The position numbers and the translations under genes are program-made. From assembly GCA_016207275.1 (NCBI GenBank), contig JACQPY010000017.1, forward strand, positions 66,479 through 111,169: a DNA stretch of 44,691 bases, read 5' to 3'. The notes under the pieces were generated by a model. It saw nothing but the letters and a program-made list of their open reading frames with translations. It ran no database searches and had not been told where the DNA came from. Shown in pieces: positions 2 through 41,628 of the stretch. The DNA is from Candidatus Kerfeldbacteria bacterium (GTDB taxonomy: Bacteria; Patescibacteriota; Patescibacteriia; SBBC01). The stretch's first letter is position 1; the number at the start of each line of letters is the position of its first letter.

Positions 2-3000
2 CTGACCTTGGGCGAGGTCGGTGATAGCTTTGCCACCGGCCTTAACGCCGGCAACCGCAACTACAATTTAACTGGCGCCGGTTCGCCGTTTGTCACCAAT
101 GCCGGCGGCACGTTGTTCGGCCAAACCTCAACCTTCATTTACAGCGGCAGTCCGTCAAATGTGACTATCGGACCGGTTGCCTATAACAACCTGACGCTCG
201 GATTGAATGATGCCAACTCGGTCATCTACGTTAATTCTAGCTCCGTTAGCGCGACGGGAACTACCACGGTTTCCACCGGTGACACCTGGACTTGCAACGC
301 GGGGTGTTCGGTCGGTAATTCGAGCACCGGTGCCGGCACGTTGGTCATCGACGGCACGATCAACGGATCGAGCTTCTTGACTTATTACTCCAATACTGCC
401 TTTCCCACCGGCGGCACGATGAACTTGATCTTATGGATGCATGGCGCGGCTACCGGTTCGCAGACGCTCAGCGCCCGGACGTACGGCGCTAATGTCCAGT
501 TCCTCTGTACGTGCGCCGAGACGATTACGCTCGGGACCGGCGCCGGTCAAACATTTACGTTTAGCAATGGGTTGAACATTGCTGAAAATGGAAACGGCGT
601 CAACTACACGGTCGATGCCGCCACCTACGACCCGACGATGAACATTACGGGCGCCCTTGATTTCAACGGCAACAGCGGCACGACCGGCATCGAGATACTC
701 AATGCCGGGGCGGGCACCTGGACGGTCAGCACGAACGTAGATTTCAACGACGCCGGCGGCCAGGCTGGCCAGTATAACTACGAAACGAATAATCTCCTTA
801 AAATGACCGGTACGAACCGGACGATCAACACCGGCGGAAACGCGCTTAATGACTATGAGATTGCCAGCGGCGGATCGAATAACGTCACCATCAACGGCAA
901 TACGACGATCAACGGCAACGTCACCATTACCAGCGGTGCGTTGACCGCGCCGTCAAGCGGGACGTTAACGATTGGCGGAACGTTTACCAATAACAGCACC
1001 TTCACCCACAACAGCAGTACCGTGACCATGAACGGCACGTCGAAAAATATTGCCGGCAGTTCCAACACGACGTTCAACAGCCTGACCATTTCCGGGACGA
1101 TTACGCTGACCGCTTCCAATCCGACCGTCAATACGGTGCTCCAAGTTGACACCAGTACATCCCTGACCATCAACAGCGGGTTAACGGTGGCGCTGGCCCG
1201 GAACAATGCCAGTGATTCCCTGACGCTCAACGGCACGATTAACGGTCCCGGCCGTCTGACCTACCGGAACGCGACCGCCAACAGTTTCACCACGAGCGGG
1301 ACGTTGGCGGCATCTCTAATCGTTCGTTTTGACACGGTTAATGGCAATCTGACCATTCCGGCCCGAACTGACTACGGCGTGATTGAGGCCTACGGCGCCA
1401 GCGCCAACGCCCGAACCGTGACGCTCGGCACTGCCGCGTCGCAGACCATCACCACCAGCAGTCACTTCTACGTCATTGCCGATGCGGCTTCGCCGAATCA
1501 TGTGACCATTGCCGGCGGTACGAACAACCCGACCGTGAACATTGGCGGCGATCTGGACTACACCGGTACGGGCACGGCCAATGAAATCATCACCTCCGGC
1601 ACGGGCACCTGGACCGTCAGCGGCAACGTCGACTTTACCGCGGGGACGTACACCGCGACCAGCGGCACCACGCTGGTCATGAACGGCGCCTCGAAAACGC
1701 TGACCACCAACGCCAACGCCTTAGTCAACCTGACGTTCTCCGGCAGTGGAACCACCACTCTAGCCGACAGCGTTAGCGCCTCCGGTAACGTCACGCTCAA
1801 CAGCACGATCAGCGCCGGCACCACGACCTTTACCATGACCGGTACGTCGAACACCTTAACCGGCGGCAGCGCGACGATCTACAACTTGACCATCGACCCG
1901 TCCTCGGCCGGCACGATTACCCTACAAACATCTGACCTGACCGTGGCCAATACGCTGACCGTGGCGGCCAGCGACACGCTCTCGCTCAACGCCAGCCGGA
2001 CCCTGACCTTGACGGGAAACAGCGGAACGACGTTGACGATCAATGGTACCATCTCGGGTAGTGGCAAAGTCATCTACCAGAACTCGGTTACCACCCTGAC
2101 CACGGCCGGAACGCTGTCGTCGGCTTTTCGCTTTGATACGGTCAACGGCAGCATGAGCGCGCCGGCCCGAACTTACGGCGGGACAGTCGAAGCAGTCAAT
2201 GGCTCTGGCGCTACCCGGACTTTGACGCTTGGCACCGCTGTCTCGCAGACACTGACTTTCTCGTCAAACCTCGACCTGCAGAGCACCAGCGCGGGCAGCA
2301 CTCTGACGCTCGCTGGCGATACCAATAACCCGACCATCTCGCTGACCGGCAGCTTTACCAATTCCAATGCGACGGCGGCCACCACCGTCAGCATGGGTTC
2401 GGGCGCCTGGACTGTTTCCGGTAATTTTGATTTAACCAATGTCGGGACCTTCAACCACAACAGCGGAAAATTGGTGATGGCCGGGACTGGCACGCTGACC
2501 TCGAACGGCAAAACGCTCAACAACGTAGATATTAATTCCAGTGGCACAGTCACGCTGGCCGCCGCCAGTCACACCTTGGCCGGCAACCTCCTGCTCGCGG
2601 GGACTGGCACGCCGACGGTCACCGGTTCAACGGTCGTCATGACGGGAACAACGAAAACCATTGATGGCGGCGGTAAAACGCTTAGTAACCTAACGATTTC
2701 TGGGGACACCACGCTTCAGAATACTGACTTGACCGTTTCCGGCACGTTGCAAATTGACAGCCTCAAGACCCTAACGATCAATGCCTCGCGTCTGTTGACC
2801 CACTCGGGCGCGACCCTGACGCTCAATGGCACCATTGCCGGAGCGGGAACGTACGTCTACCAATCAGCGACCACGTTCCCGACGAGCGGCACGATTTCCT
2901 CGCGCCTGCGCATGGATGCCACGAACAATGCCCAGACAATGAGTGCTCGTACCTACGGCGGGCTGGTTGAAGTCTACAATAATAACAGCACGACGGACCG

Positions 3001-6000
3001 AACCGTGACCATCGGCACCGGCGCGTCGCAGACGTTGACGTTTTCCAACGCGCTCAACCCGCTGGCCGTCAACAACGGCGACATCACCCTCGACGGCGAC
3101 GCCAATGACCCGACCGTCAATATAACCGGCGACCTTGATTTTACCGGCAGCGGCAACGGCGTGGAAGTCATTGCCGCTGGAGAGGGCACCTGGACGGTCG
3201 GCGGCAACGTTGATTTCACCGGCGGCGTCTACGGCCCGTCGATTTTGGCGGCCACGCCTTCCTGGGACATTACGGCCTACCGTAACCAAGCGTATGATAT
3301 CGGCTGTTTCATCTCCACCAGCTACAATTGCGACGCGGCGGGAGCGACCTCGTTGGACGTCTATCAAACGGATACGTCAAGCACCTGCGATACAGAACCA
3401 GGCAACCTGATCAACTACCGAGCGGGGACGAAGTTTGATCCGAGTTCGATCAGCGATTCAGCCACGGTCATGCGGGTGCAGCTGTTTACCTACGTCGGAA
3501 CCGCGCTCGGCACCACGGCCAACCTCGCTCGATCGACGACGGATAACCTGGAGTCGGTCAGCTGTACGGCGTCAGGCACCAGCAACGTCTGGTCAAAGAT
3601 CGGCGGCTCGGACTACGGCACCGTCGACTGGACCTCGACCGGCCCTAAGCTGACCGACCTGGGAACATCCGGGGTCAGTGACGTTCAGTCCCGATTGACC
3701 GCTGGCAGCTTGCTCTCAGTCGGCGTGAACGTGGGCTCCACCGTGCCGATCGGCAGCTTCAATTCGGTCGATAACTCAACCAGTAAGCCGAAACTGTTCA
3801 TTGCCTACGCGACGGCGACGACGCATACCCTGCTGATGAATGGAACCTCAAAAACCCTGACCAGCGGTGCCAACACGCTCTATAACCTGACCCTGTCCGG
3901 CACGATTACCCTGGCTAATGCTACGCATACCGTCGTTGGCAACCTCGATATGACCAGCGGCACGATCACCCAAGGCACTTCGACCGTGGTCATGAGCGGC
4001 GGAGGAAAAACGCTGACCGGCGCTGGACAGACGTTGAACAACTTGACGATTGATCCGCCAACCGCCGGCACGATTACCCTGGCCGACAGCGGCGTGACCA
4101 ATGACCTGACCGTGGCCGGGACGGTCAATATTGCCAGCGGCGACACCCTGTCAATCGCCAGCAGCGCGCAGCTGCTCCACAGCGGTTCAACCCTGACGCT
4201 CAACGGCACGATTTCCGGTAGCGGCACATACGTCTACCAATCCAGTACGGCTTTTCCGACCGGCGGGACGATTTCTTCCGTCCTGCGCATGGATGCAACG
4301 AATAATGACCAAATACTTTCAGCCCGCACCTACGGCGGGGCCGTTGAGCTGTATAGCAATTCCTCGGCGGCGGCTCGAACCGTTACCGCTGGGACGGCCG
4401 GTTCGCAAACACTGACGTTTTCCAGCGACTTGACGCTCAATGCCGCCAACAGCCAAAACATCACCTTGCAGGGCGCCACCTGGGATCCGACGTTGAACAT
4501 CACCGGCATCTTCGACTTTACCGGCGGCGGTGGCGGTACTGAAGTGGTGACTGCGCCCGATGCGGCCGCGACCTGGACCGTGACTGGCAATGTCGACTTG
4601 GACGGCGGTACCTGGACGGCTGCTTCGGAAACGCTGAAGATGGACGGTACCGCCAACCTCGGCGGGGGCGGGAACACGGTCAAGAATGTAACCATTGATG
4701 GCAACGCCAAAATAGTGACCGTGACCGGAACTGATATCAGTGTTTCGGGACTGCTGACCTTGGGCGGTGCGGCCGACGGCAACAACGACACCCTAACGAT
4801 TGCCAGTGGTCGTCTCGTTACTTTGTCCGCCAACTCCGGAACGTCACTGACGGTTAATGCCAGCGGTACGGATACGATCAATGGTCCAGGAAGATTGACC
4901 TATCAAAATTCAGCCACGACGTTCCCCACCGCCGGCACACTAGCTTCGACTTTGATCACGCGTTTTGACACGGTCAACGGCAACATGACCATTCCGGCTC
5001 GCACGGATTACAGCGTGATCGAGGCCTACGGCAGTAGTGCCAATGCCCGGACTGTCGCCTTAGGAACTGCGGCGTCGCAAACCATCACTACCAGTAGCCA
5101 TTTCTACGTCGTCGCCGATGCCGCTTCGCCGAACGACGTGACTGTCAGCGCCACTACGAATAATCCGACGATCAACGTCGGCGGCGATCTCGATTTTACC
5201 GGCACCGGCACTGCCAGCGAAATCATCCAGTCCGGCACTGGTACCTGGACAGTCTCGGGCAATGTTGACTTTACGTCTGGAACATACACCGCCACCAGCG
5301 GCAATACCCTGGTTATGAATGGCACCACGAAGACCTTGACCAGCGCCGCGCAAACGCTGCAGAACGTCACGCTCTCGGGCACGATCACCCTGGCTAACGC
5401 CACGCACACCGTGGCCGGCAACCTCAGCCTAGCTGGCGGCACGATCACGGCTGGCACCTCAACCGTGACCTTGACCGGCACTGCCAATTCCCTGACCGGC
5501 GGCGGGAATACGTTGAATAATTTGACCATTGATCCATCGTCAGCCGGAACGATTACTTTGCAAACTTCGGACGTCACGGTGTCCGGCACCCTGACCGTGG
5601 AAACCGGCGACACGCTGAGTTTAAGTGCGGGACGTTTGCTAACCCACTCGGGCGCCACGCTGACGCTCAACGGCACGATTGCTGGATCGGGAACCTTGGT
5701 GATACCTGATACGTCTGGCGGACCGGGCACGACCGGAACGCTGAGTTCTGGCGTGCGGTTTGACGCGACGAATGCGAACATTGCGGCGACGACGCTAGAC
5801 GCGCGGACGTACGGCGGGGCAGTTGAATTGTACAGCAACGCGGCTGGCAGCCCGGCGCGAACGATTACCTTCCCGACCGGCACCTTTACCTTCTCGTCAA
5901 CCGTGACCACCAATCGGGCTAATACCGGCACCATCACCGTGGACGCCGACACCAACGACCCGGCCGTGACCGTTGCTGGTACGCTGACCATCGGGGCGAG

Positions 6001-7015
6001 CACGACGCTGTCAGCCTCTTCGGCCAGCGCCTTCAACGTCAACGGCAACTACACCAACAACGGCACGTTCACGGACAACCTCGGGACCGTCACGCTAGCA
6101 GGCTCGGCACAACAAACGTTGTCCGGCACAATGACCGGTTTGTCCGACTTCAATAACCTGACCCTAACGAACAATTCCGGCACTGATGCTGACAGTTCGC
6201 CGTCGGTGATTTTGGCCGCGGCCGCCGACGTCGCCGGCACGGCGACGATCGCCACGGCCAACGTCAAAGTTCGATTCAACGCCGGTTCGACCTACGCCTG
6301 GACCGCGATTAACCTTAATGGACAGGCGACCACGACGCGCGTCAAATTCCGGAGTTCAACCGGCGGCACGCAATTTAACTTTAACGCCGGCGCCGGCGCG
6401 CGCACGGTGTCAAACACCGAGGTCAAAGATTCGAACGCCTGCGGCTCGAGCGGCGGGTCAATCGACGCCAGTGACGGCACGAACTTCGATGCCGGCAACA
6501 CCTCGTGCTGGACGATTCATACCATTTCATTTTCCGTGTCGGATAATGCTGTCGGCTTTGGCAGCCTCTCGACCTCGACTGGACGATGGGCCACCGGCGA
6601 CGCCTTGGGGACCAATGCTTCAGCCGGCTCAACCCCGACGGCCGCCCATACCTTGAGTGTGGCGACCAGCGGCACCAGCGGCTACGCCGTGACTTACCTC
6701 GGGGCCTTGCTGTCGAGCGGCGCGAACACGATTAGCGCGGCGACGATCACGAGTGACAGCGATGGTGCTCCCGGCACCGAACAATTCGGCGTCTCGGCGA
6801 GCACTGATGGCAATGCGACAATTGCCAGTGGCTACGCCCGCGGAGCAAACTCGTCGTGGAACTTCGTGCCGGACGCCACCACGACGTTGGTTTCGGAGAG
6901 CGTGTCCACGACCACGGAAACTGTCAGTGTCAGTTACCTTGGTAACATCACCGGAACGACCGAGGCTGGTAGTTACTCGACCGTCATTACCTACATCATG
7001 ACGGCGACGTATTGA
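2..7015 (+). CDS. Giant secreted/surface beta-helix (adhesin-like) repeat protein with C-terminal WxL-like domain; 5' truncated by window edge
   Basis: Open frame from the window edge to TGA at 7013-7015. Many T/S/N/G-rich repeats (e.g. LTLNGTI.GSGTYVYQS..FPT.GTISS.LRMDATNN; GTWTVSGNVDFT.GTY). The C-terminal ~160 aa are homologous to the next gene. Confidence 0.9.
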   Translation: MTLGEVGDSFATGLNAGNRNYNLTGAGSPFVTNAGGTLFGQTSTFIYSGSPSNVTIGPVAYNNLTLGLNDANSVIYVNSSSVSATGTTTVSTGDTWTCNAGCSVGNSSTGAGTLVIDGTINGSSFLTYYSNTAFPTGGTMNLILWMHGAATGSQTLSARTYGANVQFLCTCAETITLGTGAGQTFTFSNGLNIAENGNGVNYTVDAATYDPTMNITGALDFNGNSGTTGIEILNAGAGTWTVSTNVDFNDAGGQAGQYNYETNNLLKMTGTNRTINTGGNALNDYEIASGGSNNVTINGNTTINGNVTITSGALTAPSSGTLTIGGTFTNNSTFTHNSSTVTMNGTSKNIAGSSNTTFNSLTISGTITLTASNPTVNTVLQVDTSTSLTINSGLTVALARNNASDSLTLNGTINGPGRLTYRNATANSFTTSGTLAASLIVRFDTVNGNLTIPARTDYGVIEAYGASANARTVTLGTAASQTITTSSHFYVIADAASPNHVTIAGGTNNPTVNIGGDLDYTGTGTANEIITSGTGTWTVSGNVDFTAGTYTATSGTTLVMNGASKTLTTNANALVNLTFSGSGTTTLADSVSASGNVTLNSTISAGTTTFTMTGTSNTLTGGSATIYNLTIDPSSAGTITLQTSDLTVANTLTVAASDTLSLNASRTLTLTGNSGTTLTINGTISGSGKVIYQNSVTTLTTAGTLSSAFRFDTVNGSMSAPARTYGGTVEAVNGSGATRTLTLGTAVSQTLTFSSNLDLQSTSAGSTLTLAGDTNNPTISLTGSFTNSNATAATTVSMGSGAWTVSGNFDLTNVGTFNHNSGKLVMAGTGTLTSNGKTLNNVDINSSGTVTLAAASHTLAGNLLLAGTGTPTVTGSTVVMTGTTKTIDGGGKTLSNLTISGDTTLQNTDLTVSGTLQIDSLKTLTINASRLLTHSGATLTLNGTIAGAGTYVYQSATTFPTSGTISSRLRMDATNNAQTMSARTYGGLVEVYNNNSTTDRTVTIGTGASQTLTFSNALNPLAVNNGDITLDGDANDPTVNITGDLDFTGSGNGVEVIAAGEGTWTVGGNVDFTGGVYGPSILAATPSWDITAYRNQAYDIGCFISTSYNCDAAGATSLDVYQTDTSSTCDTEPGNLINYRAGTKFDPSSISDSATVMRVQLFTYVGTALGTTANLARSTTDNLESVSCTASGTSNVWSKIGGSDYGTVDWTSTGPKLTDLGTSGVSDVQSRLTAGSLLSVGVNVGSTVPIGSFNSVDNSTSKPKLFIAYATATTHTLLMNGTSKTLTSGANTLYNLTLSGTITLANATHTVVGNLDMTSGTITQGTSTVVMSGGGKTLTGAGQTLNNLTIDPPTAGTITLADSGVTNDLTVAGTVNIASGDTLSIASSAQLLHSGSTLTLNGTISGSGTYVYQSSTAFPTGGTISSVLRMDATNNDQILSARTYGGAVELYSNSSAAARTVTAGTAGSQTLTFSSDLTLNAANSQNITLQGATWDPTLNITGIFDFTGGGGGTEVVTAPDAAATWTVTGNVDLDGGTWTAASETLKMDGTANLGGGGNTVKNVTIDGNAKIVTVTGTDISVSGLLTLGGAADGNNDTLTIASGRLVTLSANSGTSLTVNASGTDTINGPGRLTYQNSATTFPTAGTLASTLITRFDTVNGNMTIPARTDYSVIEAYGSSANARTVALGTAASQTITTSSHFYVVADAASPNDVTVSATTNNPTINVGGDLDFTGTGTASEIIQSGTGTWTVSGNVDFTSGTYTATSGNTLVMNGTTKTLTSAAQTLQNVTLSGTITLANATHTVAGNLSLAGGTITAGTSTVTLTGTANSLTGGGNTLNNLTIDPSSAGTITLQTSDVTVSGTLTVETGDTLSLSAGRLLTHSGATLTLNGTIAGSGTLVIPDTSGGPGTTGTLSSGVRFDATNANIAATTLDARTYGGAVELYSNAAGSPARTITFPTGTFTFSSTVTTNRANTGTITVDADTNDPAVTVAGTLTIGASTTLSASSASAFNVNGNYTNNGTFTDNLGTVTLAGSAQQTLSGTMTGLSDFNNLTLTNNSGTDADSSPSVILAAAADVAGTATIATANVKVRFNAGSTYAWTAINLNGQATTTRVKFRSSTGGTQFNFNAGAGARTVSNTEVKDSNACGSSGGSIDASDGTNFDAGNTSCWTIHTISFSVSDNAVGFGSLSTSTGRWATGDALGTNASAGSTPTAAHTLSVATSGTSGYAVTYLGALLSSGANTISAATITSDSDGAPGTEQFGVSASTDGNATIASGYARGANSSWNFVPDATTTLVSESVSTTTETVSVSYLGNITGTTEAGSYSTVITYIMTATY

Positions 7016-7022
7016 CGAACCT

Positions 7023-7051
7023 TTGACGAGAAAGCAAACTTGTGGTATATT
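7023..7051 (+). promoter_or_regulatory. Sigma70-like promoter TTGACG-N17-TATATT (extended TGG)
   Basis: TTGACG 7023-7028, 17-nt spacer, TGG then TATATT 7046-7051, upstream of the 7144 gene. Confidence 0.6.
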
Positions 7052-7143
7052 TAATGATGCGAACAAAAATAAAGATACGTAAAAACCAATAAAGCGTGAC
7101 TTTTCCTAAAAAATTGGCGCCTTTCTCCATCAATCGACGAAGG

Positions 7144-8241
7144 ATGAGGATTATCCACAGGGGCCTGGCCGTGTTGGTGGTTATGGCCGTGTTGGTGTTC
7201 ATGAATGCTCCGGTGCCGACTGCTCAAGCCGCCGCGGTCACCAGCCTGCGAGATACACTTTCGCGTTTAAAGGCCAGTACAGCCGCGAACCACACGATTG
7301 AGTTGGTGACGCCGACCGGCGTTGAGGCTTCGACCGATACGATCACCTTGACCTTCGCCTCGGGCTGGACGCTGGCTGCTGAAGCAGCCGTCAACTTTGA
7401 CTTGGCGGTGGGGGACAGCGGTACCTGTTCGACGGCGACCTTTACTGACAAGACGTTGGCCTTGACCGCGGCGGCTGCAACCTGGGGTGTCGATGTGACC
7501 GGCCAGGTCATCACCTTTACCGCTCCGACCGATGCCGCCTCGGGCGAAATTACCGCCGGCCGATGCGTCCAAATCCAAGCCGGTTCAAACGCGACTACCG
7601 GCGGAACGGGATCAGCCTCAACCATCACGAACCCCACCGCCGGGCAGACGACGATGACCATCGGCGGCACCTTCGGCGATTCGGGCACCCTGGCCGTTCG
7701 AATTATTGCCGATGAACAAGTCAGCGTGACCGCGACCGTTGATCCGACACTGACCTTCACGGTTGACGACAACGCCATCGGCTTTGGTTCACTTTCAGCT
7801 TCAACCGGACGTTGGGCGACGGGCGATACAACTGGTGGCAATGCTTCGGCCGGCTCGACGCCGACCGCGGCCCACACCATGACCGTGGCCACCAACGCCC
7901 AGAGCGGTTACGCCATCACCTATAACGGCGCCACCCTGACCAGCGGGGCGAATACCGTGACCGTCGCCACGATTTCCAGCGACAGCGACGGCACGCCCGG
8001 CGGCGAACAGTTTGCCCTTTCCGCCAGTACGAGTGGTGACGCGACGATTGCTTCGGGCTATGCCCGCGGCGCCAATAGCTCCTGGAACTTCGTGGCTAGC
8101 ACGACCACCACCCTGGTCTCAGAAACGGGCGAGACTGATACCGAGACGATCAGCGTTAGCTACCTCGGCAACATCAGCACTATCACCGAGGCGGGCAGCT
8201 ACACAACGACGATTACCTACATCGCGACGGCGGTCTTTTAA
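7144..8241 (+). CDS. Secreted protein with signal peptide and C-terminal WxL-like domain shared with the upstream giant protein
   Basis: N-term MRIIHRGLAVLVVMAVLVFMNAPVPTAQAA. C-term from ~FTVDDNAIGFGSLS to SYTTTITYIATAVF aligns with the giant protein C-term. A GTG start at 7096 is the alternative. Confidence 0.85.
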   Translation: MRIIHRGLAVLVVMAVLVFMNAPVPTAQAAAVTSLRDTLSRLKASTAANHTIELVTPTGVEASTDTITLTFASGWTLAAEAAVNFDLAVGDSGTCSTATFTDKTLALTAAAATWGVDVTGQVITFTAPTDAASGEITAGRCVQIQAGSNATTGGTGSASTITNPTAGQTTMTIGGTFGDSGTLAVRIIADEQVSVTATVDPTLTFTVDDNAIGFGSLSASTGRWATGDTTGGNASAGSTPTAAHTMTVATNAQSGYAITYNGATLTSGANTVTVATISSDSDGTPGGEQFALSASTSGDATIASGYARGANSSWNFVASTTTTLVSETGETDTETISVSYLGNISTITEAGSYTTTITYIATAVF

Positions 8242-8268
8242 TCGGTTTGAACCGGAGAGGGGTTGTTC

Positions 8269-9279
8269 ATGAACCGCGGACGAATACTGACACTGGCACT
8301 GAGCCTGTCGTTGGTGGCGCTACTGGCGGCCCAGCGGAGTGAGGCTTTAACCATCTCACCGCCGACCTTTGAAGTTATGGCTAAGCCGGGCGAGTCAAAA
8401 TCACTCAGCATCCGAGTGATTAACGATCAATCGACGCTCGTCACCCTTTTTACGTCGACGGCAAACTTCAAGGCCCAGGGTGAAACCGGGCAGCCGGATT
8501 TTTTGTTTGACGTCGAAACCATTGACCTGGCCTCGTGGATTAAGCCGGGAAAAACTTCCTTCACCCTCGAGCCGGGAGATTCAACGTTCGTGCCGTTCAC
8601 CATTGACGTTCCGGCTCAGGCTGAACCGGGTGGCCACTACGCCGGCTTATTTTTTGGCACCGGCGCGCCGGCGGCCGACGGCGGCCAGGTGGGAATTGAA
8701 TCGAAGCTCGGGGCGCTGATCATTCTCAGCGTTGAGGGCAACATTCGCGAGTCGGCGGCCGTCAAAGAGTTCGACACCAGCCCGGATAGGCGCAACCACC
8801 TGCCGGTTCCTTTCGTCCTGCGGATCGAGAACATTGGGAACGTCCACTTCCGTCCGGCCGGATTCGTGACGATCCGAAACATGTTTGGCGGCGTGTCGAC
8901 CACCATCCCCGTTAATCCAAAAGAAGGCGCTGTTTTACCAGCCAGCATCCGTCGGTTCGACCTGCTGTGGCAGCGGCTTGATAGCCAGGACAATGGCGGC
9001 AGCTTCTTTCGAGAGCTTGCCGATGAATGGAAAAATTTTGGTCTCGGCTCGTATACTGCCGAGGCGGTCGTTACGTACGGCCAGAATGATCGAGTCATCA
9101 CCGCCACCACAAAGTTCACCGTCTTTCCCTGGCGCCTCTTCTTGCTGATCGCCGTCATCGTGGTCGTCCTCATATGGCTGCTGGTCAAAGGAATCAAGAG
9201 CTACAACGCCATGATCGTTCGTCGGGCTGAAGCAGGTGGCCCCCGTCCGCCCGGCCGCGGTGCTAAACCGACGGCCTAG
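8269..9279 (+). CDS. DUF916-like (WxL-interacting/peptidoglycan-binding type) surface protein with C-terminal TM helix
   Basis: Signal peptide; LTISPPTFEVMAKPGESKSLSIRVIND...W.KPGKTSFTLEPGDSTFVPFTIDVPAQAEPGGHYAGLFFG resembles the DUF916 pattern; TM near RLFLLIAVIVVVLIWLLV. SD-like GGAGAGG before ATG 8269. Confidence 0.75.
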   Translation: MNRGRILTLALSLSLVALLAAQRSEALTISPPTFEVMAKPGESKSLSIRVINDQSTLVTLFTSTANFKAQGETGQPDFLFDVETIDLASWIKPGKTSFTLEPGDSTFVPFTIDVPAQAEPGGHYAGLFFGTGAPAADGGQVGIESKLGALIILSVEGNIRESAAVKEFDTSPDRRNHLPVPFVLRIENIGNVHFRPAGFVTIRNMFGGVSTTIPVNPKEGAVLPASIRRFDLLWQRLDSQDNGGSFFRELADEWKNFGLGSYTAEAVVTYGQNDRVITATTKFTVFPWRLFLLIAVIVVVLIWLLVKGIKSYNAMIVRRAEAGGPRPPGRGAKPTA

Positions 9280-9282
9280 TCG

Positions 9283-10137
9283 ATGGCCATGGCCGTGCGC
9301 CGGCGCGGGCGGATCCTCCTCTCGGTGGCGCTCGGCGCCTTGGTCTTCGGTGTTCAGGCGGCCCAGGCCGTTGAGGTTAGCGTCTCGGCGGGCGTCATCG
9401 GCACGACCCCACCCGGACCGCAGAATCCGGTGGTTGAGTTTCGAGGTTTAGCGGCGCCGCGGGCGGCCCTGACCGTAACGCGAAACAGCAGTACGGTTGG
9501 CCAGACGACCGCCGATGACGCCGCCAGCTTTGCGGTGACGGCGAGCGATCAGTCAGCTGGCCAGTATGAGTTTGTGGTCGCTGGCAAAGATGGTGACGGC
9601 CGAGTTTTAACGTCAGTCAGCTTCACCCTCAACCTTACCGCCGGTACCACGACGATCGTGACCGGGGTTTTCCTCGGCCCGTCGATTGCCCTCGACAAAA
9701 CAACCGTGACCACGAGCGAGTCAGTCTCAGCCAGTGGGGCCACGGCCCCGGGCAGCAGCGTCACCGTTACGGTTACCTCAGAGCCGAAAACCTATACCGC
9801 GCTGGCCGACAGCAATGGCCGCTGGCAGGTTACCATCAAGGGCGCCGACGTTGGCGAGGGTTCGCACAATGTAAAAGCCAGGGCGATTGCCAACGGTGTA
9901 ACCGCCTCAGCCTTTAGCGCTTCAGTGAGTTTTTCGGTTTCCGCCGAACCGACGCCAGCACCTTCATATAAACCGTCAGACATCAACCAGGATACCAAGG
10001 TTAACTTGATTGATTTTAGCATCATGCTCTTCTACTGGCAGCAGCGGAATCCCGCTAACCCGCGAGTTGACCTTAACGGTGACGGCATCGTCAACATCGT
10101 TGATTTTAGCATTCTCCTCTACGAATGGACCGGTTAG
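9283..10137 (+). CDS. Secreted Ig-like protein with C-terminal type I dockerin
   Basis: Signal peptide, two Ig-like segments, C-term DINQDTKVNLIDFSIMLFYW...VDLNGDGIVNIVDFSILLYEW: duplicated Ca-binding dockerin repeats. Confidence 0.88.
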   Translation: MAMAVRRRGRILLSVALGALVFGVQAAQAVEVSVSAGVIGTTPPGPQNPVVEFRGLAAPRAALTVTRNSSTVGQTTADDAASFAVTASDQSAGQYEFVVAGKDGDGRVLTSVSFTLNLTAGTTTIVTGVFLGPSIALDKTTVTTSESVSASGATAPGSSVTVTVTSEPKTYTALADSNGRWQVTIKGADVGEGSHNVKARAIANGVTASAFSASVSFSVSAEPTPAPSYKPSDINQDTKVNLIDFSIMLFYWQQRNPANPRVDLNGDGIVNIVDFSILLYEWTG

Positions 10138-11243
10138 GAAGAATCATTATCGTCGCCGTTATCGCGCTAACCGCCTCGGCTTCACGGGCGGCTGAGTCGG
10201 GAACCGTGACCTTGCTTGGTCCGGTGACCTCGCCTCGCGTTGGCGAGGAAGCCGCCATTGAAGTGCGGTTGACGTCGGCCGGACAAGCCATCAATGCCGC
10301 GGAACTCAAGCTGCGGTACCCGAGCGCGGCCCTCGAGGTAACCCGGATTGCCCGGGAGCAATCCTTGTTTACGCTCTGGCCAGAGGCGCCGGCCTGGGAT
10401 GCGAGCAAGGGAATAATTACCCTGGTTGGCGGTAAGCCAGGAGGCACGATCGCCATTAACGCCGCGGTGGCGACGATCTACGTCAAGGTGCTGGCGACGG
10501 GTACGCACACGGTTGAACTCGACCCAACGTCAGTGGCCTTTCTTAATGATGGCGCGCCATCGCAATTGACGCTCCAGAGTGCCCCGCTGCGGCTGGTCAC
10601 CAGCGATCCCTTACTCCAGCCGTTCCAGCTCGGCCCGGCGACGACGCCGACCCCCGGCACCTGGTCGACCGCCCGTTCGATTGCGGTCAGCTGGCCGCGG
10701 CAAGCGGACACGCTCTACAGTTATCAACTGCGGACCGACATTCAATCGATCGCTGACGACATTCCCGAGACAACCGACGGGACCGCCACGTTCGAGGACC
10801 TGACTGACGGAATCTATTATTTCACCTTACGGTACAAGACGAGTTCTGGCCTGTGGTCACCGCCGTTCCAGTGGCGTTTCATGCTCGATGCGACGCCGCC
10901 CGAACCTTTCACGCTCGAAGTGGCTCAGCCAGATTCGAAGCAGTTGACGAAGCTGCTCGCCTGGAATGCCTACGACATGACCGCCGGCGTGGTTGAATCA
11001 ATTTTGACAATCGGCCGGACGCGGCTTGGCCCGGTCACGAGTCCGCTGCCAATCCAATCATTATGGCTCGGTACAACCGTTACCGTGACGGTAGTTGACG
11101 CGGCTGGAAATACCCGGACCGTGGGCCTGACCCTGGGGACGACGTTGGGTCGATCAGGGTTGATACCATGGTTGGCCGTTGGGGCCGCGGTCCTGGTTGG
11201 GGCGCTGGCCGTGGCCATGATTCGCGCCCGTCAGCGCGCCTAG
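10125..11243 (+). CDS. Membrane-anchored cohesin-domain protein 1
   Basis: Signal peptide; VGEEAAIEVRLTSAGQAINAAELKLRYPSAALEV...GGTIAINAAVATIYVKV..TGTHTVELD cohesin-like; C-terminal TM. Overlaps the dockerin gene stop. Confidence 0.8.
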   Translation: MDRLGRIIIVAVIALTASASRAAESGTVTLLGPVTSPRVGEEAAIEVRLTSAGQAINAAELKLRYPSAALEVTRIAREQSLFTLWPEAPAWDASKGIITLVGGKPGGTIAINAAVATIYVKVLATGTHTVELDPTSVAFLNDGAPSQLTLQSAPLRLVTSDPLLQPFQLGPATTPTPGTWSTARSIAVSWPRQADTLYSYQLRTDIQSIADDIPETTDGTATFEDLTDGIYYFTLRYKTSSGLWSPPFQWRFMLDATPPEPFTLEVAQPDSKQLTKLLAWNAYDMTAGVVESILTIGRTRLGPVTSPLPIQSLWLGTTVTVTVVDAAGNTRTVGLTLGTTLGRSGLIPWLAVGAAVLVGALAVAMIRARQRA

Positions 11244-11262
11244 CGTGCTATACTGGCCGTGT

Positions 11263-12681
11263 ATGCAGCAGCCGCAGCAAGTTGTCCGGTGGCTCGTCTG
11301 GTTGGGCGCGGTGACGGTGGCCGCTGGCTGGCTGACCGCGGGCGCGCCGCTCGCCTTAGCCGCCGGCGCCAGCTTGAAGATTTCACCGGGCAGCGGAACC
11401 TACGAAGTCGGCGGGCTGATCGACGTCGCCTTTGTCTTGGATACCGGCGGCGAAGCAGTCAACGCGGTCAAAGCCGATATTGTTTTTCCGGCGGACAAGC
11501 TGCAAATCGTCAATCCGGCGGCCAGCACGTCGTTTATCTCGGTCTGGCTGACCGCGCCGACGTTTTCGAACGCCGACGGCACCCTCAACTTCCAAGGCGG
11601 CCTGCCCAACCCCGGCATCAATACCAGCTCGGGCTTCATCAGCACGGTCACCTTCCGCGTCAAATCAGCGGGCAAGGCCGTGGTTCGCTACTTGCCGAGT
11701 TCGTTGGTGCTCCGTAACGATCCTGATGGCACGAACATCCTGACCTCGTCGGGGACGGCCGAGTTCACGCTCAAAACGCCACCGCCCGCCGGTCCGGTGG
11801 TCTCGAGCCCAACCCACGGCGATCCCAACCAGTGGTACAACATTCCCCAGGCTCAGTTCAGCTGGGAACCGGTTGACGGCGCCGTCGGTTACAGTTACGC
11901 CTTTGACCAGGCCGCCAAGCAAGCTCCCGATACGACCGTTGACACGACCGCGACCTCGGCCACGGTTGAAGCGACTGCCGACGGCGTCTGGTACTTCCAT
12001 GTCCGGGCGTTCACCACGGCCTGGGGCGGGGCGACTACCTTTCCGGTCCAGATTGACCGGACACCGCCCGCTTCGTTTACGCCGAAGCTCGACAGCGACC
12101 TCCTGACCACCGAAGAATCAGGCACGGTGCGGTTCATTACGACCGACGGGGCTTCGGGTTTGGACCACTACGAGGTCAAGCAAGTGGCTCGGGCGGGCAG
12201 CAGCGCGCCGGGTAACACCTTGTTCGTCGAAATCACGAGCCCATACGTCACGCCCAAGCTCCCTGACGGCGAGTACGAGTTTATTGTCCGGGCTTTTGAC
12301 CGAGCCGGCAACGTGACCGAGGGCTCGGCCGTACTGACGATCGTGGCCGGCGGCATCCCGTTCTACGCCCGGGTGCCGTTTTTACGCAACCCCGCGGTCG
12401 CCAACACCGTCTTCATCGTGTTGGGCGCGTTGGTCGTCTTGAGCCTTGGTTATTGGATCTATCGGCGACTGCGTCTCCGGGCCACGTTTCAGCATGACCT
12501 GCTGGCCCTGGAACGAGACGCGCAGAAAAAAGCCCGTGCCTTACAGCAAGAGTTGTCCGAGCTGCACCAAGCCGAACAGTACTTCCACGACGAACTGAAG
12601 TCGCCGCCACCGTCGTTCATTCCGCCGGCCTCGCCACCAGGACCGCCACCATCATCAACTTCACCGGGCCCGCGTCCATGA
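11263..12681 (+). CDS. Membrane-anchored cohesin-domain protein 2
   Basis: SPGSGTYEVGGLIDVAFVLDTGGEAVNAVKADIVFPADKLQIV...GTLNFQGGLPNPGINTSSGFISTVTFRVKSAGKAVVRYL; TM NTVFIVLGALVVLSLGYWIY; charged cytoplasmic tail. TATACT lies 8 nt before the ATG. Confidence 0.83.
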   Translation: MQQPQQVVRWLVWLGAVTVAAGWLTAGAPLALAAGASLKISPGSGTYEVGGLIDVAFVLDTGGEAVNAVKADIVFPADKLQIVNPAASTSFISVWLTAPTFSNADGTLNFQGGLPNPGINTSSGFISTVTFRVKSAGKAVVRYLPSSLVLRNDPDGTNILTSSGTAEFTLKTPPPAGPVVSSPTHGDPNQWYNIPQAQFSWEPVDGAVGYSYAFDQAAKQAPDTTVDTTATSATVEATADGVWYFHVRAFTTAWGGATTFPVQIDRTPPASFTPKLDSDLLTTEESGTVRFITTDGASGLDHYEVKQVARAGSSAPGNTLFVEITSPYVTPKLPDGEYEFIVRAFDRAGNVTEGSAVLTIVAGGIPFYARVPFLRNPAVANTVFIVLGALVVLSLGYWIYRRLRLRATFQHDLLALERDAQKKARALQQELSELHQAEQYFHDELKSPPPSFIPPASPPGPPPSSTSPGPRP

Positions 12682-14327
12682 AGCGATTGGTGGTGATGGT
12701 CGGAATCGCTTTGGCCATTGGCCTGTGGGCCTGGGCGACCGAGGCACGAGCGGCGACCTTGTTTTTGAGCCCGTCGAGCAAAACAGTCACCGTCGGCGAC
12801 AGTCTCAGCCTCAGCCTCAAGGTTAATGCCGGCGCCTCGGCCATCAATGCGGCTGAGGCGACGGTCAGTTTTCCCGCCAATCTGCTGCAGCTGACGTCCG
12901 TCAGCCAGCGCGGTTCGATTTTTACGTTTTGGGCGGTTGAGCCATCAGGTTCGAATGCCAGCGGGACCGTTCGCTTTTCCGGCGGCCTGCCCAATCCGGG
13001 CTACAGCGGGCTGTCCGGCACGATTGCGGTGATGAACTTTTCCGCCAAGACGACCGGCACGGCCAAGCTGACGATCAGCGGCGCCCAAGTGCTGGCCAAT
13101 GATGGTAAAGGCACGAACGTCTTGACCAGCGCTGGCAGCGGGAGTTTTGAAATCAAACGAGCGGGCGAGTCGCCCCCGCCACCACCAGCCGTGCCCGGTC
13201 GGCCGACCCCGGGCCTCAGTTCACGTTCGCATCCGGACAGTAACGCCTGGTACCGCGAGGCAACGGCCGTGGTCAGCTGGACTAAACCGGCTGGCTTGGA
13301 AGCAGTCAGTTTCGAGCTTAACCAGCGAGCCGACACGGTGCCTGACGATACGCCCGAGGCGAATACCGGCCAGGTGGAACTGAAGCTGGCCGCCGAGGGC
13401 GTCTGGTACGTTCACCTGAAAGGTCGGTACAGTTCGGGTTGGAGCGGGGTTGGGCACTATCGAATTCAGTTCGATGCGACCGCCCCCGAGGCTTTTGCAA
13501 TCGACGTCACCCGCGACCGGGGCGCGACTGACCCCAGTCCGCAGCTGACCTTTACCGCCCATGACGCGACCAGCGGAATTGTGCGTTATACGCTCAGCCT
13601 CGATGGCGCCGAAGCTTACGAGGTCGGTAGTCCGCTGACGCTGCAGCTCGAGCGGGCCGGTAGCCACCGAGTGGCGATCACCGCCATTGATCAAGCTGGC
13701 AACACCCGCGAGGCGACGGTTGACCTGGCGGTTGAAGGGTACGCCCCGCCGACCGTCACCAACATTACTACGCCGATTATCCTGCTCGATGCCCTGACGG
13801 TCCGTGGTCTGGCCCAGCCCGGTGATACGGTGACGGTCTTCGTCAACGAACAAGAGGTCGGTAAGGTTATTGTCGTTACAACCATCCAGCCGGGCGGACG
13901 GGCGCCGTGGATCTTGACCACCGACAAGTTGTTTCGGCCAGGCCGCTACCGGGTCACGGCCACGGCCACGAGTGCTGACGGCCACGTCAGCGTGCCGGCC
14001 GACGCCGTTGAGTTTTCCGTTACCGGCAAGGCGTTTTTACTGAACGGTCGGGTTGTGGCCACGGTCTCCGCCTTGCCGGTGATTACCGCCTTGGCCGCGG
14101 CCGTACTGGTCGCGATCATCGGACTGGTCGTGTTTCTGCTCGTCCGGTTGCAATTGATTCGCCATAAAGAACTGGAAGTTGAAGACGAGCTAGAAACGCT
14201 GCGCACCCGGGTCCACCGCAGCCGGCCGACCGGCGAGCAAATTGAGGCGACGATCGAAAAAATCGAACGCGACCTGCTGCGGCGTAAGCCCAAGCGGAGC
14301 AGCCGGAAGGGGACGGCGGCGAACTAG
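12678..14327 (+). CDS. Membrane-anchored cohesin-domain protein 3 with cytoplasmic coiled-coil-like tail
   Basis: SPSSKTVTVGDSLSLSLKVNAGASAINAAEATVSFPANLLQLTSV...GTVRFSGGLPNPGYSGLSGTIAVMNFSAKTTGTAKLTI; TM ALAAAVLVAIIGLVVFLLV; Glu/Arg-rich tail. ATGA overlap with the previous gene. Confidence 0.85.
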   Translation: MKRLVVMVGIALAIGLWAWATEARAATLFLSPSSKTVTVGDSLSLSLKVNAGASAINAAEATVSFPANLLQLTSVSQRGSIFTFWAVEPSGSNASGTVRFSGGLPNPGYSGLSGTIAVMNFSAKTTGTAKLTISGAQVLANDGKGTNVLTSAGSGSFEIKRAGESPPPPPAVPGRPTPGLSSRSHPDSNAWYREATAVVSWTKPAGLEAVSFELNQRADTVPDDTPEANTGQVELKLAAEGVWYVHLKGRYSSGWSGVGHYRIQFDATAPEAFAIDVTRDRGATDPSPQLTFTAHDATSGIVRYTLSLDGAEAYEVGSPLTLQLERAGSHRVAITAIDQAGNTREATVDLAVEGYAPPTVTNITTPIILLDALTVRGLAQPGDTVTVFVNEQEVGKVIVVTTIQPGGRAPWILTTDKLFRPGRYRVTATATSADGHVSVPADAVEFSVTGKAFLLNGRVVATVSALPVITALAAAVLVAIIGLVVFLLVRLQLIRHKELEVEDELETLRTRVHRSRPTGEQIEATIEKIERDLLRRKPKRSSRKGTAAN

Positions 14328-14382: not shown

Positions 14383-14409
14383 TTAGCAGTCTAAGCTCGA
14401 GAGTGCTAA
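14383..14409 (+). promoter_or_regulatory. CIRCE element (HrcA operator), one mismatch
   Basis: TTAGCAGTC-N9-GAGTGCTAA versus consensus TTAGCACTC-N9-GAGTGCTAA, just upstream of hrcA. Confidence 0.92.
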
Positions 14410-27519: not shown

Positions 27520-28610
27520 TGGCACCGGCGCATCGTTCACCCTGGACGTGGTTAGTGCTGGCCCTACCGGTCGTGGCGGCATTGCTCTTCCACCTCGGTC
27601 TGGCTACCATCGTGGTCCAGGGGATTCAGGAGCGGTGGTGGTTGATGGCACTGCTGGTTCTTGGTTTTTCGATCACGCTGGCCTGGTCAGCCGTGGCTAG
27701 CACGTTGGTGGTTGATCGTTGGGTACCGTGGGCCGTCGGCGGAGCAGTGGCCGCGACCAGCCTGGTCGTCGGTTTTAATCCACCAACGCTCCTGGCGCTG
27801 TTGATCGAGTTTATTGCTATCGGCACGTTTGCCCGTAACGCACGAATCGAGGCTTTGAACCGCTTGAAGTTTTCCGTCTGGAAAGCTATGTCCTTCGGTA
27901 TCACCACATCGATCACGCTGCTCCTGTTGGCCGTATCCGCCTTTTCCTACCATGGTTTTACGCGACCCGGCGCCGACGAGCGACTGAAGGGCGCCTTGAT
28001 CGACGCGGCGGTGACGGCGCTCAACCCGGTACTGCCGAAGGTTGTGTCGAACTACCGGCCCGACGCCACGGTTGATGAACTCATTCGGTCCACGCTGCCC
28101 AGCGGCCAATCGATCCTGGAGACGGCGCAGCAAAATGCCGGCGAACTGTCCCGGCCAGCGGTTGAACAGGCACTGCAGAATCGGGGAATCGACCCGCGTT
28201 TGGTTGACCTCAACCGCTTTGTCGCCCAGAGCCAAGCTAGCCAAGAGGAGCTGGCGCGACAGATTGACGCCCAGGTCCAAAAGCTGAGCGATGAGTTGGT
28301 GGTGACGACCCGGACCGAGCTATCGAAGGCTTTGGGCGTTGAACTGCGCGCTGATCAGCGAGGTGATGAAGCGATTCGGGCCGCCCTGACTGTTCGCTAC
28401 GACCACGCCCTGGCGCCAATGGCCTCATTGCTACCGTTCATCTTTGCCGGCTCACTGTTTTTTACCTTGGTTATCTTCACACCCGTATACCTGTACCTAA
28501 CCTGGTTTCTAGGCGCGGCGCTGTTTTGGATCTTGCGGGCCTTCCACCTGGTTCTGCCAGAAGAACACCAGGCCACCGTTCAGACGTTCCACCTGCGCGG
28601 CGAGCGTTAG
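27519..28610 (+). CDS. Multi-pass membrane protein
   Basis: Several TM segments; start overlaps the DUF3467 stop; stop lies within CIRCE. Confidence 0.75.
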   Translation: MAPAHRSPWTWLVLALPVVAALLFHLGLATIVVQGIQERWWLMALLVLGFSITLAWSAVASTLVVDRWVPWAVGGAVAATSLVVGFNPPTLLALLIEFIAIGTFARNARIEALNRLKFSVWKAMSFGITTSITLLLLAVSAFSYHGFTRPGADERLKGALIDAAVTALNPVLPKVVSNYRPDATVDELIRSTLPSGQSILETAQQNAGELSRPAVEQALQNRGIDPRLVDLNRFVAQSQASQEELARQIDAQVQKLSDELVVTTRTELSKALGVELRADQRGDEAIRAALTVRYDHALAPMASLLPFIFAGSLFFTLVIFTPVYLYLTWFLGAALFWILRAFHLVLPEEHQATVQTFHLRGER

Positions 28611-28633
28611 CACTCTTGACTTTAGAGTGCTAA
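28607..28633 (+). promoter_or_regulatory. Perfect CIRCE element upstream of dnaJ
   Basis: TTAGCACTC-ttgacttta-GAGTGCTAA. Confidence 0.96.
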
Positions 28634-38516: not shown

Positions 38517-39044
38517 GTGTCAAATGGAACGCCGGGTGGAGTAAACCGAGAGCCAGGACGCGACGACCAACTGCGTCCGGAGCTGTCTCGCCCTGAACAG
38601 GAGCGCCACGTTCAAGTCCGGACTGAGCATGAACCGTTGCCAGAAACCGAGTCCGAACGGATTGAACGAAAGATCCTTGAGACGCAGCGCGCGGCTGAAG
38701 TTCGTGAGCGACCAGCGGCGCTGCCAGCGGCCCAACCGTCTGCCCCTGCGCCAGTCGATCCGGTCGTTAAGGAAATCGAAAATATTCTGAGCGAAGACCT
38801 TGGACCGATCTACCGCGCCATGACGCCGGCCCAGCAGCGCGTTTTCAAAGTTGAGGGCGAACGGACGGCTACGGCCATTCGCCGCCTGCTCGAGCAGCTT
38901 AAAGTCAGAGCTAAAACCATTCTCGATTTGATTCGTCGGTGGCTGCGGGTCATCCCCGGTGTCAACAAGTTTTTTATGGAGCAGGAAGCGAAGATTAAAA
39001 CGGATAAGGTCATGGCGCTGCACGACCAGCTCCACCGCCAGTAG
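38517..39044 (+). CDS. Hypothetical protein upstream of T4SS ATPase
   Basis: GTG start; extended -10 TGCTATAAT at 38467-38475; same orientation and adjacent to 39052. Confidence 0.7.
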   Translation: MSNGTPGGVNREPGRDDQLRPELSRPEQERHVQVRTEHEPLPETESERIERKILETQRAAEVRERPAALPAAQPSAPAPVDPVVKEIENILSEDLGPIYRAMTPAQQRVFKVEGERTATAIRRLLEQLKVRAKTILDLIRRWLRVIPGVNKFFMEQEAKIKTDKVMALHDQLHRQ

Positions 39045-39051
39045 AGGACCG

Positions 39052-41628
39052 ATGCTGGCGGTCGTTACACCAATCGATTTTGAACTAACGTCTGAGACCG
39101 TGACCAAGCTGTCGGACAGCCAGGTTTTTGGCGCGGCTATCTGGGTTGTGGTCGCGCTCGGCATCACCCTGCTGGCAGTGCTGATTCTGCGCTGGCTGCT
39201 CCACTACCTGGCGCGGACCTCGGTCAGCATGCAAAAGGTGGTGCTGCTGGCGACTGTCCCCAAAGAACAAAGTGAGGAGAAGCAGCAGCGGCCGCTTGAT
39301 CCAAAAGAGGTACTGGCTCAGCTCGAAACGTTTGTCTTAAACCTCGGCGGCTTGCCGGCCCAACGGTCAGCCAACGTCATCAAGAACGCCTGGGACAACT
39401 TCTGGTTTGGCCGGAACGATGAGCTGGCTTTTGAAATTGTGGCTGACCAGGGGGTGATTAAGTTTTTCGTGGTCGTGCCTCGACACCTGCAGCAGTTGGT
39501 TGAGCTGCAGCTCCACGCCCAGTACCCCAAGGCGTACCTGGAAGCGGTGACTGACTACAACATTTTTTCGGCGCGAGGGCAGATCATGGGCGGTTACCTC
39601 AACCTGACGAAACGCAGTATGTTTCCGATTCGCACCTACAAGAAGCTTGACGCTGATCCGCTGAACGCCCTGACCAACGTCTTGTCGAAGATTGGCGAGG
39701 ACGCTGGCGCGGCTATCCAAGTTACGCTCCGGCCGGCCCGCGGCCACTGGCAGCAGCCGGGGCAACGCGTCGCCCACCGGCTGCAGCACGGTAAAAAGCT
39801 GTCCGAAGCCATGGGCGCGACTGGCATGGCCGGGGCGCTAAAGACGGCGGCCACGGTCACAACCAGCAGCCTGCGCTCCTCCTCGACCGAACAATCGGCA
39901 CAGAACCGCATGCCCTACCTGACGCCGATGGAACAGGAGTTGGTCAAAGCGCTTGAGGAAAAAGCCAGCAAGCCCGGTTTTGAGGTAAATATCCGGCTGG
40001 TGTCATCGGCGCCCGATGTCCAGCGAACCCGCGCCAACTTAATCAACCTGACCAATGCCTTTACCCAGTACCGCGGCCAGGAAACGGAAAACGGTTTTGT
40101 CCGCCGGCGCTTGATTCGCCGCAGCGCGTTTATCGAAGCCTTCATCTACCGGCACTTTAGTCAACGGCACAAGTTCATTTTGAACAGCGAAGAAGTAACC
40201 TCACTGTGGCACTTGCCGTTGCCGACCACTGAGACGCCGAACATTTTGTGGCTGCACGCCCGGACTGCGCCGGCGCCGGCCAACCTGCCGGCTGAAGGTA
40301 TCAGCCTGGGCAAGAACGTCTTCCGCAGCGTTGAGCGAGTAGTCAACCTCAAACGCGACGACCGACGTCGGCACGTCTACATCATCGGCATGACCGGCTC
40401 AGGCAAGTCGGTCTTGATGGCGGAGATGGCGAAGCAGGACATTCGCAATGGCGAGGGCGTCTGCGTGGTTGACCCGCACGGTTCGCTGGTCGAGGACATC
40501 ATCCAGAGCATTCCGCGCGAGCGGTTCGACGACGTGGTCTACTTTGATCCCTCCGACGTCGAGCGGCCGGTCGGGCTTAACATGCTCGAGGCCAAGAACG
40601 CCCAGGAGCGCGATTTTGCCGTCCAGGAAATGATCGCCATTTTCTACAAGCTTTTTCCGCCGGAGATGATCGGGCCGATGTTCGAACACAACATGCGCAA
40701 CGCCATGCTGACGTTGATGGAAGACCAGGAGTATCCCGGGACGATTGCCGAGATCCCGCGCATCTTCACCGACACCGCCTTCCAAAAGTACAAGGTGGCG
40801 AAGCTGACTGATCCGGTGGTCCGCAGCTTCTGGGAAAAAGAAATGGCCAAAACGTCGGATTTCCACAAGTCGGAAATGCTCGGCTATCTGATTTCCAAGG
40901 TCGGCCGGTTCGTCGAGAACGCGATGATGCGCAACATCATTGGCCAGCCTGGCTCGGGCTTCAACCTGCGTCAGATGATGGACCAGAAAAAAATCCTGCT
41001 GGTTAACCTGTCGAAAGGCAAGGTCGGCGAAGTCAACGCCAACCTGCTCGGCTTGATTATCGTCTCCAAGCTGCAGATGGCTGCCTTGTCGCGGGCTGAT
41101 ACTCCCGAACACCAGCGCAGTGACTTCTACCTGTACATTGACGAGTTTCAGAACTTCATTACTGACTCGATCGCCACGATTCTATCCGAGGCGCGAAAGT
41201 ACAAGCTCAACCTGACCATGGCTCACCAGTACATGGGCCAGCTGGTCCAGGGCCAGGACACCAAGATCCGCGACGCCGTGCTCGGCAACGTCGGGACGAT
41301 GATCGCCTTCCGCATCGGCGTGGATGACGCCGAAATTTTGGAAAAACAATACGCGCCGGTGTTCTCGCTGTTCGACCTGGTCAACATCGACCGCTTCAAT
41401 GCCTACGTCCGGCTGTTGATTGACAACCGCGTGTCAAAACCGTTCAGCCTGGCCACCTTTCCGCCGGCGCCCGGCAGCCCGGCCATCGCCGCCGAAGTCA
41501 AGCGATTGTCGAGCACAAAGTACGGCCGCGATCGGGCGATTGTCGAAGCGGAGATTTTGGAACGCAGCCGGCTCGGCTCGGCCACGGCTGCGCCGCCCGC
41601 TCAACCAATGGCCGAACGGAGGTTTTAG
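39052..41628 (+). CDS. Type IV secretion/conjugation ATPase (TraD/VirD4-VirB4-like, DUF87-type)
   Basis: N-terminal TM; YIIGMTGSGKSVLMAEMAKQDIRNGEGVCVVDPHGSLVEDI; FYLYIDEFQNFITDSIATILSEARKYKLNLTMAHQYMGQL. Confidence 0.88.
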   Translation: MLAVVTPIDFELTSETVTKLSDSQVFGAAIWVVVALGITLLAVLILRWLLHYLARTSVSMQKVVLLATVPKEQSEEKQQRPLDPKEVLAQLETFVLNLGGLPAQRSANVIKNAWDNFWFGRNDELAFEIVADQGVIKFFVVVPRHLQQLVELQLHAQYPKAYLEAVTDYNIFSARGQIMGGYLNLTKRSMFPIRTYKKLDADPLNALTNVLSKIGEDAGAAIQVTLRPARGHWQQPGQRVAHRLQHGKKLSEAMGATGMAGALKTAATVTTSSLRSSSTEQSAQNRMPYLTPMEQELVKALEEKASKPGFEVNIRLVSSAPDVQRTRANLINLTNAFTQYRGQETENGFVRRRLIRRSAFIEAFIYRHFSQRHKFILNSEEVTSLWHLPLPTTETPNILWLHARTAPAPANLPAEGISLGKNVFRSVERVVNLKRDDRRRHVYIIGMTGSGKSVLMAEMAKQDIRNGEGVCVVDPHGSLVEDIIQSIPRERFDDVVYFDPSDVERPVGLNMLEAKNAQERDFAVQEMIAIFYKLFPPEMIGPMFEHNMRNAMLTLMEDQEYPGTIAEIPRIFTDTAFQKYKVAKLTDPVVRSFWEKEMAKTSDFHKSEMLGYLISKVGRFVENAMMRNIIGQPGSGFNLRQMMDQKKILLVNLSKGKVGEVNANLLGLIIVSKLQMAALSRADTPEHQRSDFYLYIDEFQNFITDSIATILSEARKYKLNLTMAHQYMGQLVQGQDTKIRDAVLGNVGTMIAFRIGVDDAEILEKQYAPVFSLFDLVNIDRFNAYVRLLIDNRVSKPFSLATFPPAPGSPAIAAEVKRLSSTKYGRDRAIVEAEILERSRLGSATAAPPAQPMAERRF

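Follow-up and report, generated by a model that had tools for sequence, protein, structure and literature searches.

Seven co-directional genes at the start of the window, by which we mean the whole 44,691-nucleotide stretch of DNA analysed (G000:C15:66479-111169, from a genome of 0.95 Mb that is 92% complete), probably form a conserved surface attachment cluster of Patescibacteria of the Microgenomates group. In the reading that we favour, the cluster comprises two cooperating modules: a pilus-like fibre made by the products of the first three genes (P1 to P3), and a calcium-dependent clip in which P4 sits on the receptors P5 to P7. All seven open reading frames lie on the plus strand within positions 2-14327; a sequence-only reading of the same DNA had the direction right but counted six genes. 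The features of the locus and its downstream border are listed below.

2-7015, plus strand: P1, a giant surface protein of 3332 residues, the last 2337 of them within the window, with beta-rich repeats and a C-terminal Pam-pilin domain.
6515-7012, plus strand: Pam pilin C-terminal domain of P1 (NF058581, 65.3 bits against a cut-off of 55).
7096-8241, plus strand: P2, a secreted pilin-like protein of 381 residues (NF058581, E 2.9e-19).
7741-8238, plus strand: Pam pilin C-terminal domain of P2 (NF058581, 73.5 bits against a cut-off of 55).
8263-9279, plus strand: P3, a WxLIP/DUF916-like protein with a C-terminal membrane helix from about residue 290 (PF06030, E 0.001; family profile against EfmWxLIP1, E 1e-7).
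9283-10137, plus strand: P4, a secreted protein with Ig-like domains and a C-terminal dockerin (PF00404, 32.3 bits; PF19077, 37.5 bits; family alignment).
9952-10134, plus strand: type I dockerin module of P4 with two intact calcium-binding loops (conserved D/N positions; PDB dockerins, E 1e-13).
10125-11243, plus strand: P5, cohesin receptor 1, with a C-terminal membrane helix and an 8-residue cytoplasmic tail.
10197-10613, plus strand: cohesin domain of P5, position-1 clade (family alignment, tree).
11245-12681, plus strand: P6, cohesin receptor 2, with a membrane helix and a 76-residue cytoplasmic tail containing a conserved coiled-coil-like segment.
11365-11784, plus strand: cohesin domain of P6, position-2 clade with support 100/100 (family alignment, tree).
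12678-14327, plus strand: P7, cohesin receptor 3, with a membrane helix and a 60-residue charged cytoplasmic tail (PF00963, 29.8 bits against a cut-off of 24.1).
12750-13166, plus strand: cohesin domain of P7 (PF00963 match, family alignment).
14383-14409, plus strand: CIRCE operator with one mismatch, before hrcA, marking the downstream border of the locus.

The gaps between consecutive genes from P1 to P7 are only 80, 21, 3, -13, 1, and -4 nt, a spacing that looks operon-like. Both of the last two junctions had been described as short overlaps; this holds for the second and third cohesin genes (4 nt), whereas the first and second cohesin genes are 1 nt apart. The other overlap, of 13 nt, joins the dockerin gene to the first cohesin gene. 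Downstream of P7 lie hrcA, grpE, hsp20, and dnaK, with hsp20 assigned by sequence reading only. Because the CIRCE operator precedes hrcA (0.01 matches are expected by chance in the window), these heat-shock genes are probably a transcription unit apart from the surface cluster. A perfect CIRCE also precedes dnaJ at 28607-28633, and the presence of the two operators suggests that HrcA likely controls two heat-shock units. Further along the window, positions 38959-41628 encode an 889-residue protein with matches to type IV coupling-protein/conjugative DNA transfer ATPases.

P1 and P2 share a C-terminal domain, as had been claimed from the sequence: their last 166 residues are 72% identical. The domain had also been called WxL-like, and this identity did not survive. 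The WxL model PF13731 has no match in the genome and matches in one of 59 relatives; both proteins instead pass NF058581, the "Pam pilus system pilin subunit" model, which is matched by 34 of the 41 family members at E ≤ 0.001. When hhalign was used to compare the profile of the P1/P2 domain with that of WxL-like domains from the same class, the probability was 1.6% and covered only an 18-residue C-terminal motif, a score little above those of two negative controls with cohesin. On the absence of PF13731 and the hhalign result we reject the WxL identity. The C-terminal motif of P1 and P2, T-AG-Y-T, does resemble the end of WxL-like domains; given that the hhalign signal is confined to 18 residues and lies near the controls, this is a resemblance of the last strand rather than demonstrated homology. 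A PDB search with the pilin domain returned nothing significant (best E 0.37, nanobodies), and an AlphaFold2 model of P2 built from four sequences has a pLDDT of 37.4, too low for use. The word "pilus" for P1 and P2 rests on the NCBIfam annotation. The Pam pilus system of Patescibacteria, from the same phylum, has the pilin C domain in common with P1 and P2. It differs in that no PamT-level match was found across this genome (NF058579; best score 26 bits, inside P1, against a cut-off of 240; genome 92% complete), and in that the pilin here is accompanied by a WxLIP-like protein as well as by dockerin and cohesin proteins.

P3 was proposed to be a DUF916-like partner of these proteins, and the family evidence bears this out, although P3 alone falls below the Pfam cut-off for PF06030 (WxLIP_PGBD; E 0.001, 19.6 bits against 27.3). 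A profile of the 27-member P3 family matches the solved EfmWxLIP1 chains 9i25 and 9i1y at E 1e-7, and PF06030 itself is matched by 10 of the 27 members at E ≤ 0.001. P3 begins with a signal-like segment and ends in a membrane helix. It has no match to PF11797 (DUF3324/HBD); a region of suitable length followed by the terminal helix is present. The AlphaFold2 model of P3, built from one sequence, has a pLDDT of 42.6, likewise too low for use. A search of genome contigs with P3 led to one locus, L008, from Candidatus Microgenomatus auricola, the nearest named relative; L008 appears to be one contig with G296:C43, which it equals in length and gene layout, and L070 was accordingly left out of the alignments. 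The genome contains a second cluster with such proteins (L069:6346-12990, on G000:C7), in which three surface proteins of 681, 234, and 208 residues with a common C-terminal domain alternate with two WxLIP-like proteins in which the membrane helix is followed by LysM. A similar cluster in G335 has WxL and WxLIP domains at the Pfam level.

The dockerin of P4 is certain. Its score exceeds the PF00404 cut-off of 22.9, both calcium loops are intact, and DFSI occurs in both repeats. Almost every one of 23 homologues keeps the D/N positions of the loops, and the dockerin profile matches solved cellulosomal dockerins at E 1e-13. By hydropathy, P4 has no C-terminal membrane helix. Proteins of about 1,100 residues with about ten dockerin repeats were observed in G321:C2, G324:C19, G357:C169, G385:C18, and G409:C28, in genomes that also carry a single-dockerin protein; such multi-dockerin proteins could cross-link cohesin receptors.

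The cohesin identity of P5, P6, and P7 is well supported when they are taken as one family, in agreement with the earlier description of three cohesin membrane proteins. P7 alone passes the PF00963 cut-off; P5 (17.3 bits) and P6 (16.3 bits) lie below it. The three domains nonetheless belong to one alignable family, 23 of whose 40 members are matched by the Pfam cohesin model, and the family profile matches PDB cohesins weakly (E 0.004-0.008). According to hydropathy, the N-terminal part of each receptor contains a hydrophobic segment and the cohesin, and the C-terminal part a membrane helix. When 40 cohesins were placed in a tree, the copies at position 1 fell into one group (support 92/88) and those at position 2 into another (100/100), in each case across families, which indicates that the copies are old and have been kept in order. 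The cytoplasmic tails of the receptors differ: that of receptor 1 is basic and 4-14 residues long in all 12 examined, that of receptor 2 has 49-88 residues and includes a coiled-coil-like segment that is conserved, and that of receptor 3 is usually long as well. In P6, the coiled-coil-like tail (window 12451-12678) is conserved across genera.

Conservation of the gene neighbourhood had been set beforehand as a point on which the proposal could fall, and the neighbourhood is conserved. The full order pilin-DUF916-dockerin-cohesins is found in 21 of 197 genomes of the class, so the arrangement is not due to chance; it spans many families, and the spacing between the dockerin gene and the upstream DUF916 gene is nearly constant. 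Cohesin occurs in 85 of the 197 genomes, dockerin in 89, DUF916 in 117, and pilin in 98, counts to be read with the DUF916 profile also picking up relatives in other clusters and with fragmented genomes lowering the numbers. For 63 of 69 strong dockerins in these genomes, a cohesin gene lies within 1.5 kb downstream on the same strand, and a pilin-domain gene is directly upstream of 70 of 118 DUF916 genes. Co-occurrence, uncorrected for kinship, is strong within each module (cohesin-dockerin, odds ratio 43, p 7e-27; DUF916-pilin, odds ratio 78, p 2e-28) and loose by comparison between the modules (odds ratio 2.7-4.2, likewise uncorrected). Outside the class, too, dockerin and cohesin genes are neighbours; examples are G077, G105, G120, G134, G153, and G186. 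In G019, the pilin-DUF916 and dockerin-cohesin pairs are on different contigs; since the modules also occur apart in this way, their joint function is not obligatory.

The domains, hydropathy-based topology, gene order, conservation, and co-occurrence observed here allow us to outline a mechanism for the two-module attachment cluster. In the first module, P1 would serve as a membrane-tethered giant fibre and P2 as a secreted Pam-type pilin. P3 would hold both at the membrane, probably by beta-strand completion between its Ig domain and the pilin C-domain. The proposed binding of the pilin domain by P3 is an analogy to the WxLIP domain, which is predicted to complete the WxL sheet through a beta-strand (PMC10599100). 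In the second module, the P4 dockerin is expected to clip noncovalently and in a calcium-dependent manner to the cohesin ectodomains of P5 to P7. The Ig domains of P4 and the P1/P2 fibre would then contact a partner cell or surface. We infer that the two modules act together and that the cluster has a role in attachment.

The separate occurrence of the modules bears on the view that they are mere neighbours, with the Pam-pilin/WxLIP fibre neither touching the dockerin-cohesin complex nor cooperating with it. In many genomes only one of the two pairs, pilin-DUF916 or dockerin-cohesin, is present, and the association between modules is weak, as this view would have it; the same order in 21 genomes of many families and the near-constant dockerin-DUF916 spacing amount to more than a loose neighbourhood, and we regard full independence as unlikely. 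A further reading, in which the lone dockerin or the cohesins have their partners in other organisms or in some other protein and P4 and P5 to P7 are separate adhesins, is quite improbable. The imbalance of one dockerin to three cohesins in the genome would suit such a reading, and nonenzymatic dockerins have been suggested to be adhesins (PMC10066038). Against it, a cohesin gene directly downstream of nearly every strong dockerin is the pattern expected of cognate partners, and the pairing extends to other classes.

Two comparisons with known systems place the cluster further. The WxL/WxLIP (Csc) clusters of Lactobacillales and Bacillales (PMC10599100) contain, as here, a WxLIP-like Ig protein with a C-terminal membrane helix next to two surface proteins, one small and one large, that have a C-terminal domain in common. 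That P3 is a WxLIP relative with a membrane helix, that the genes upstream of it encode one large and one small surface protein, and that T-AG-Y-T recalls a WxL-like end would all fit a true peptidoglycan-bound Csc complex of the Lactobacillales kind. Such a complex is nevertheless highly improbable, and the Csc identity suggested earlier is not supported: WxL is unmatched in the genome, and the domain of P1 and P2 lacks profile homology to WxL-like domains and passes a different curated model. The cluster also differs from Csc clusters in its added dockerin and cohesin genes and in its patescibacterial genome. We keep the analogy in the sense of "works like" because a WxLIP-like gene directly follows a surface-protein gene in those 70 of 118 cases. 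The expression of cohesin and dockerin domains in a related Microgenomates organism has been interpreted as a sign of a cellulosome (PMC9123182), and a reduced cellulosome for polysaccharide degradation could be proposed here because both domain types are present. The type I dockerin with two calcium loops and the cell-anchored cohesin receptors are indeed shared with cellulosomes and with noncellulosomal cohesin-dockerin systems. However, the only dockerin of the genome (92% complete) is on the Ig-domain protein P4, the three cohesins are on single-cohesin membrane receptors, and no enzyme domain was found in any of the seven proteins. With a lone nonenzymatic dockerin and no scaffoldin bearing multiple cohesins, a cellulosome is rejected for the 92% of the genome covered, as the sequence-only reading had anticipated in calling the locus not an obvious one, and we give the reduced form hardly any credence.

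The N-terminus of P1 adds a further element. The window edge cuts P1, whose frame opens with GTG at G000:C15:63495 (L002:16996); the N-terminal part outside the window (G000:C15:63495-66478; L002:16996-19977), and thus out of sight of the sequence-only reading, is in one frame with the extracellular part. In order, the protein comprises a MerR/excisionase-type HTH, one membrane helix, extracellular repeats, and the pilin domain. The HTH matches HTH_17 with 33.5 bits against a cut-off of 27, and an excisionase model at its cut-off. In-frame fusions of HTH, helix, and giant protein recur in G321, G407 (an 8382-residue open frame), and G383, from two other families, which makes a start-codon artefact unlikely. 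The giants L112, L116, L117, L119, and L121 have a basic segment and a helix and, by eye, no HTH; a Pfam scan of two of these five, L119 and L121, gave no match. The P1 HTH could bind DNA, in which case P1 would be a transmembrane regulator. Alternatively, by analogy, it could bind a protein, as the HTH of RodZ does. RodZ-like HTH membrane proteins likewise combine a cytoplasmic HTH, a membrane helix, and extracytoplasmic beta domains, but the P1 HTH is of the MerR/excisionase type rather than that of RodZ, and its ectodomain runs to thousands of residues and ends in a pilin domain. A bolder possibility, which we consider decidedly unlikely, is a contact-sensing apparatus in which attachment or tension on the P1 fibre outside the cell would act through the cytoplasmic MerR/excisionase-type domain to alter transcription directly, with the dockerin-cohesin clip, whose receptors 2 and 3 have coiled-coil-like cytoplasmic tails, securing or modulating the contact.

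Each part of the proposed two-module attachment cluster is known singly; here, three known building blocks are linked in one conserved locus. The same arrangement in about 20 related genomes makes the cluster look like a standard, undescribed cell-surface apparatus. The literature searched, which did not extend to preprints and yielded nothing on the Pam pilus, contains no account of the parts in combination, of dockerin-cohesin pairing across the phylum, or of an HTH-fused giant protein, so that priority is uncertain. A central question about uncultured Patescibacteria, still open, is the manner of their attachment to other cells, and the locus provides a conserved, testable surface target in a group without genetics. 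It also offers a noncellulosome reading of the cohesins and dockerins of Microgenomates (PMC9123182). In the epibiont Southlakia, a dockerin protein is essential (PMC10633639), and the cluster gives a possible context for that protein.
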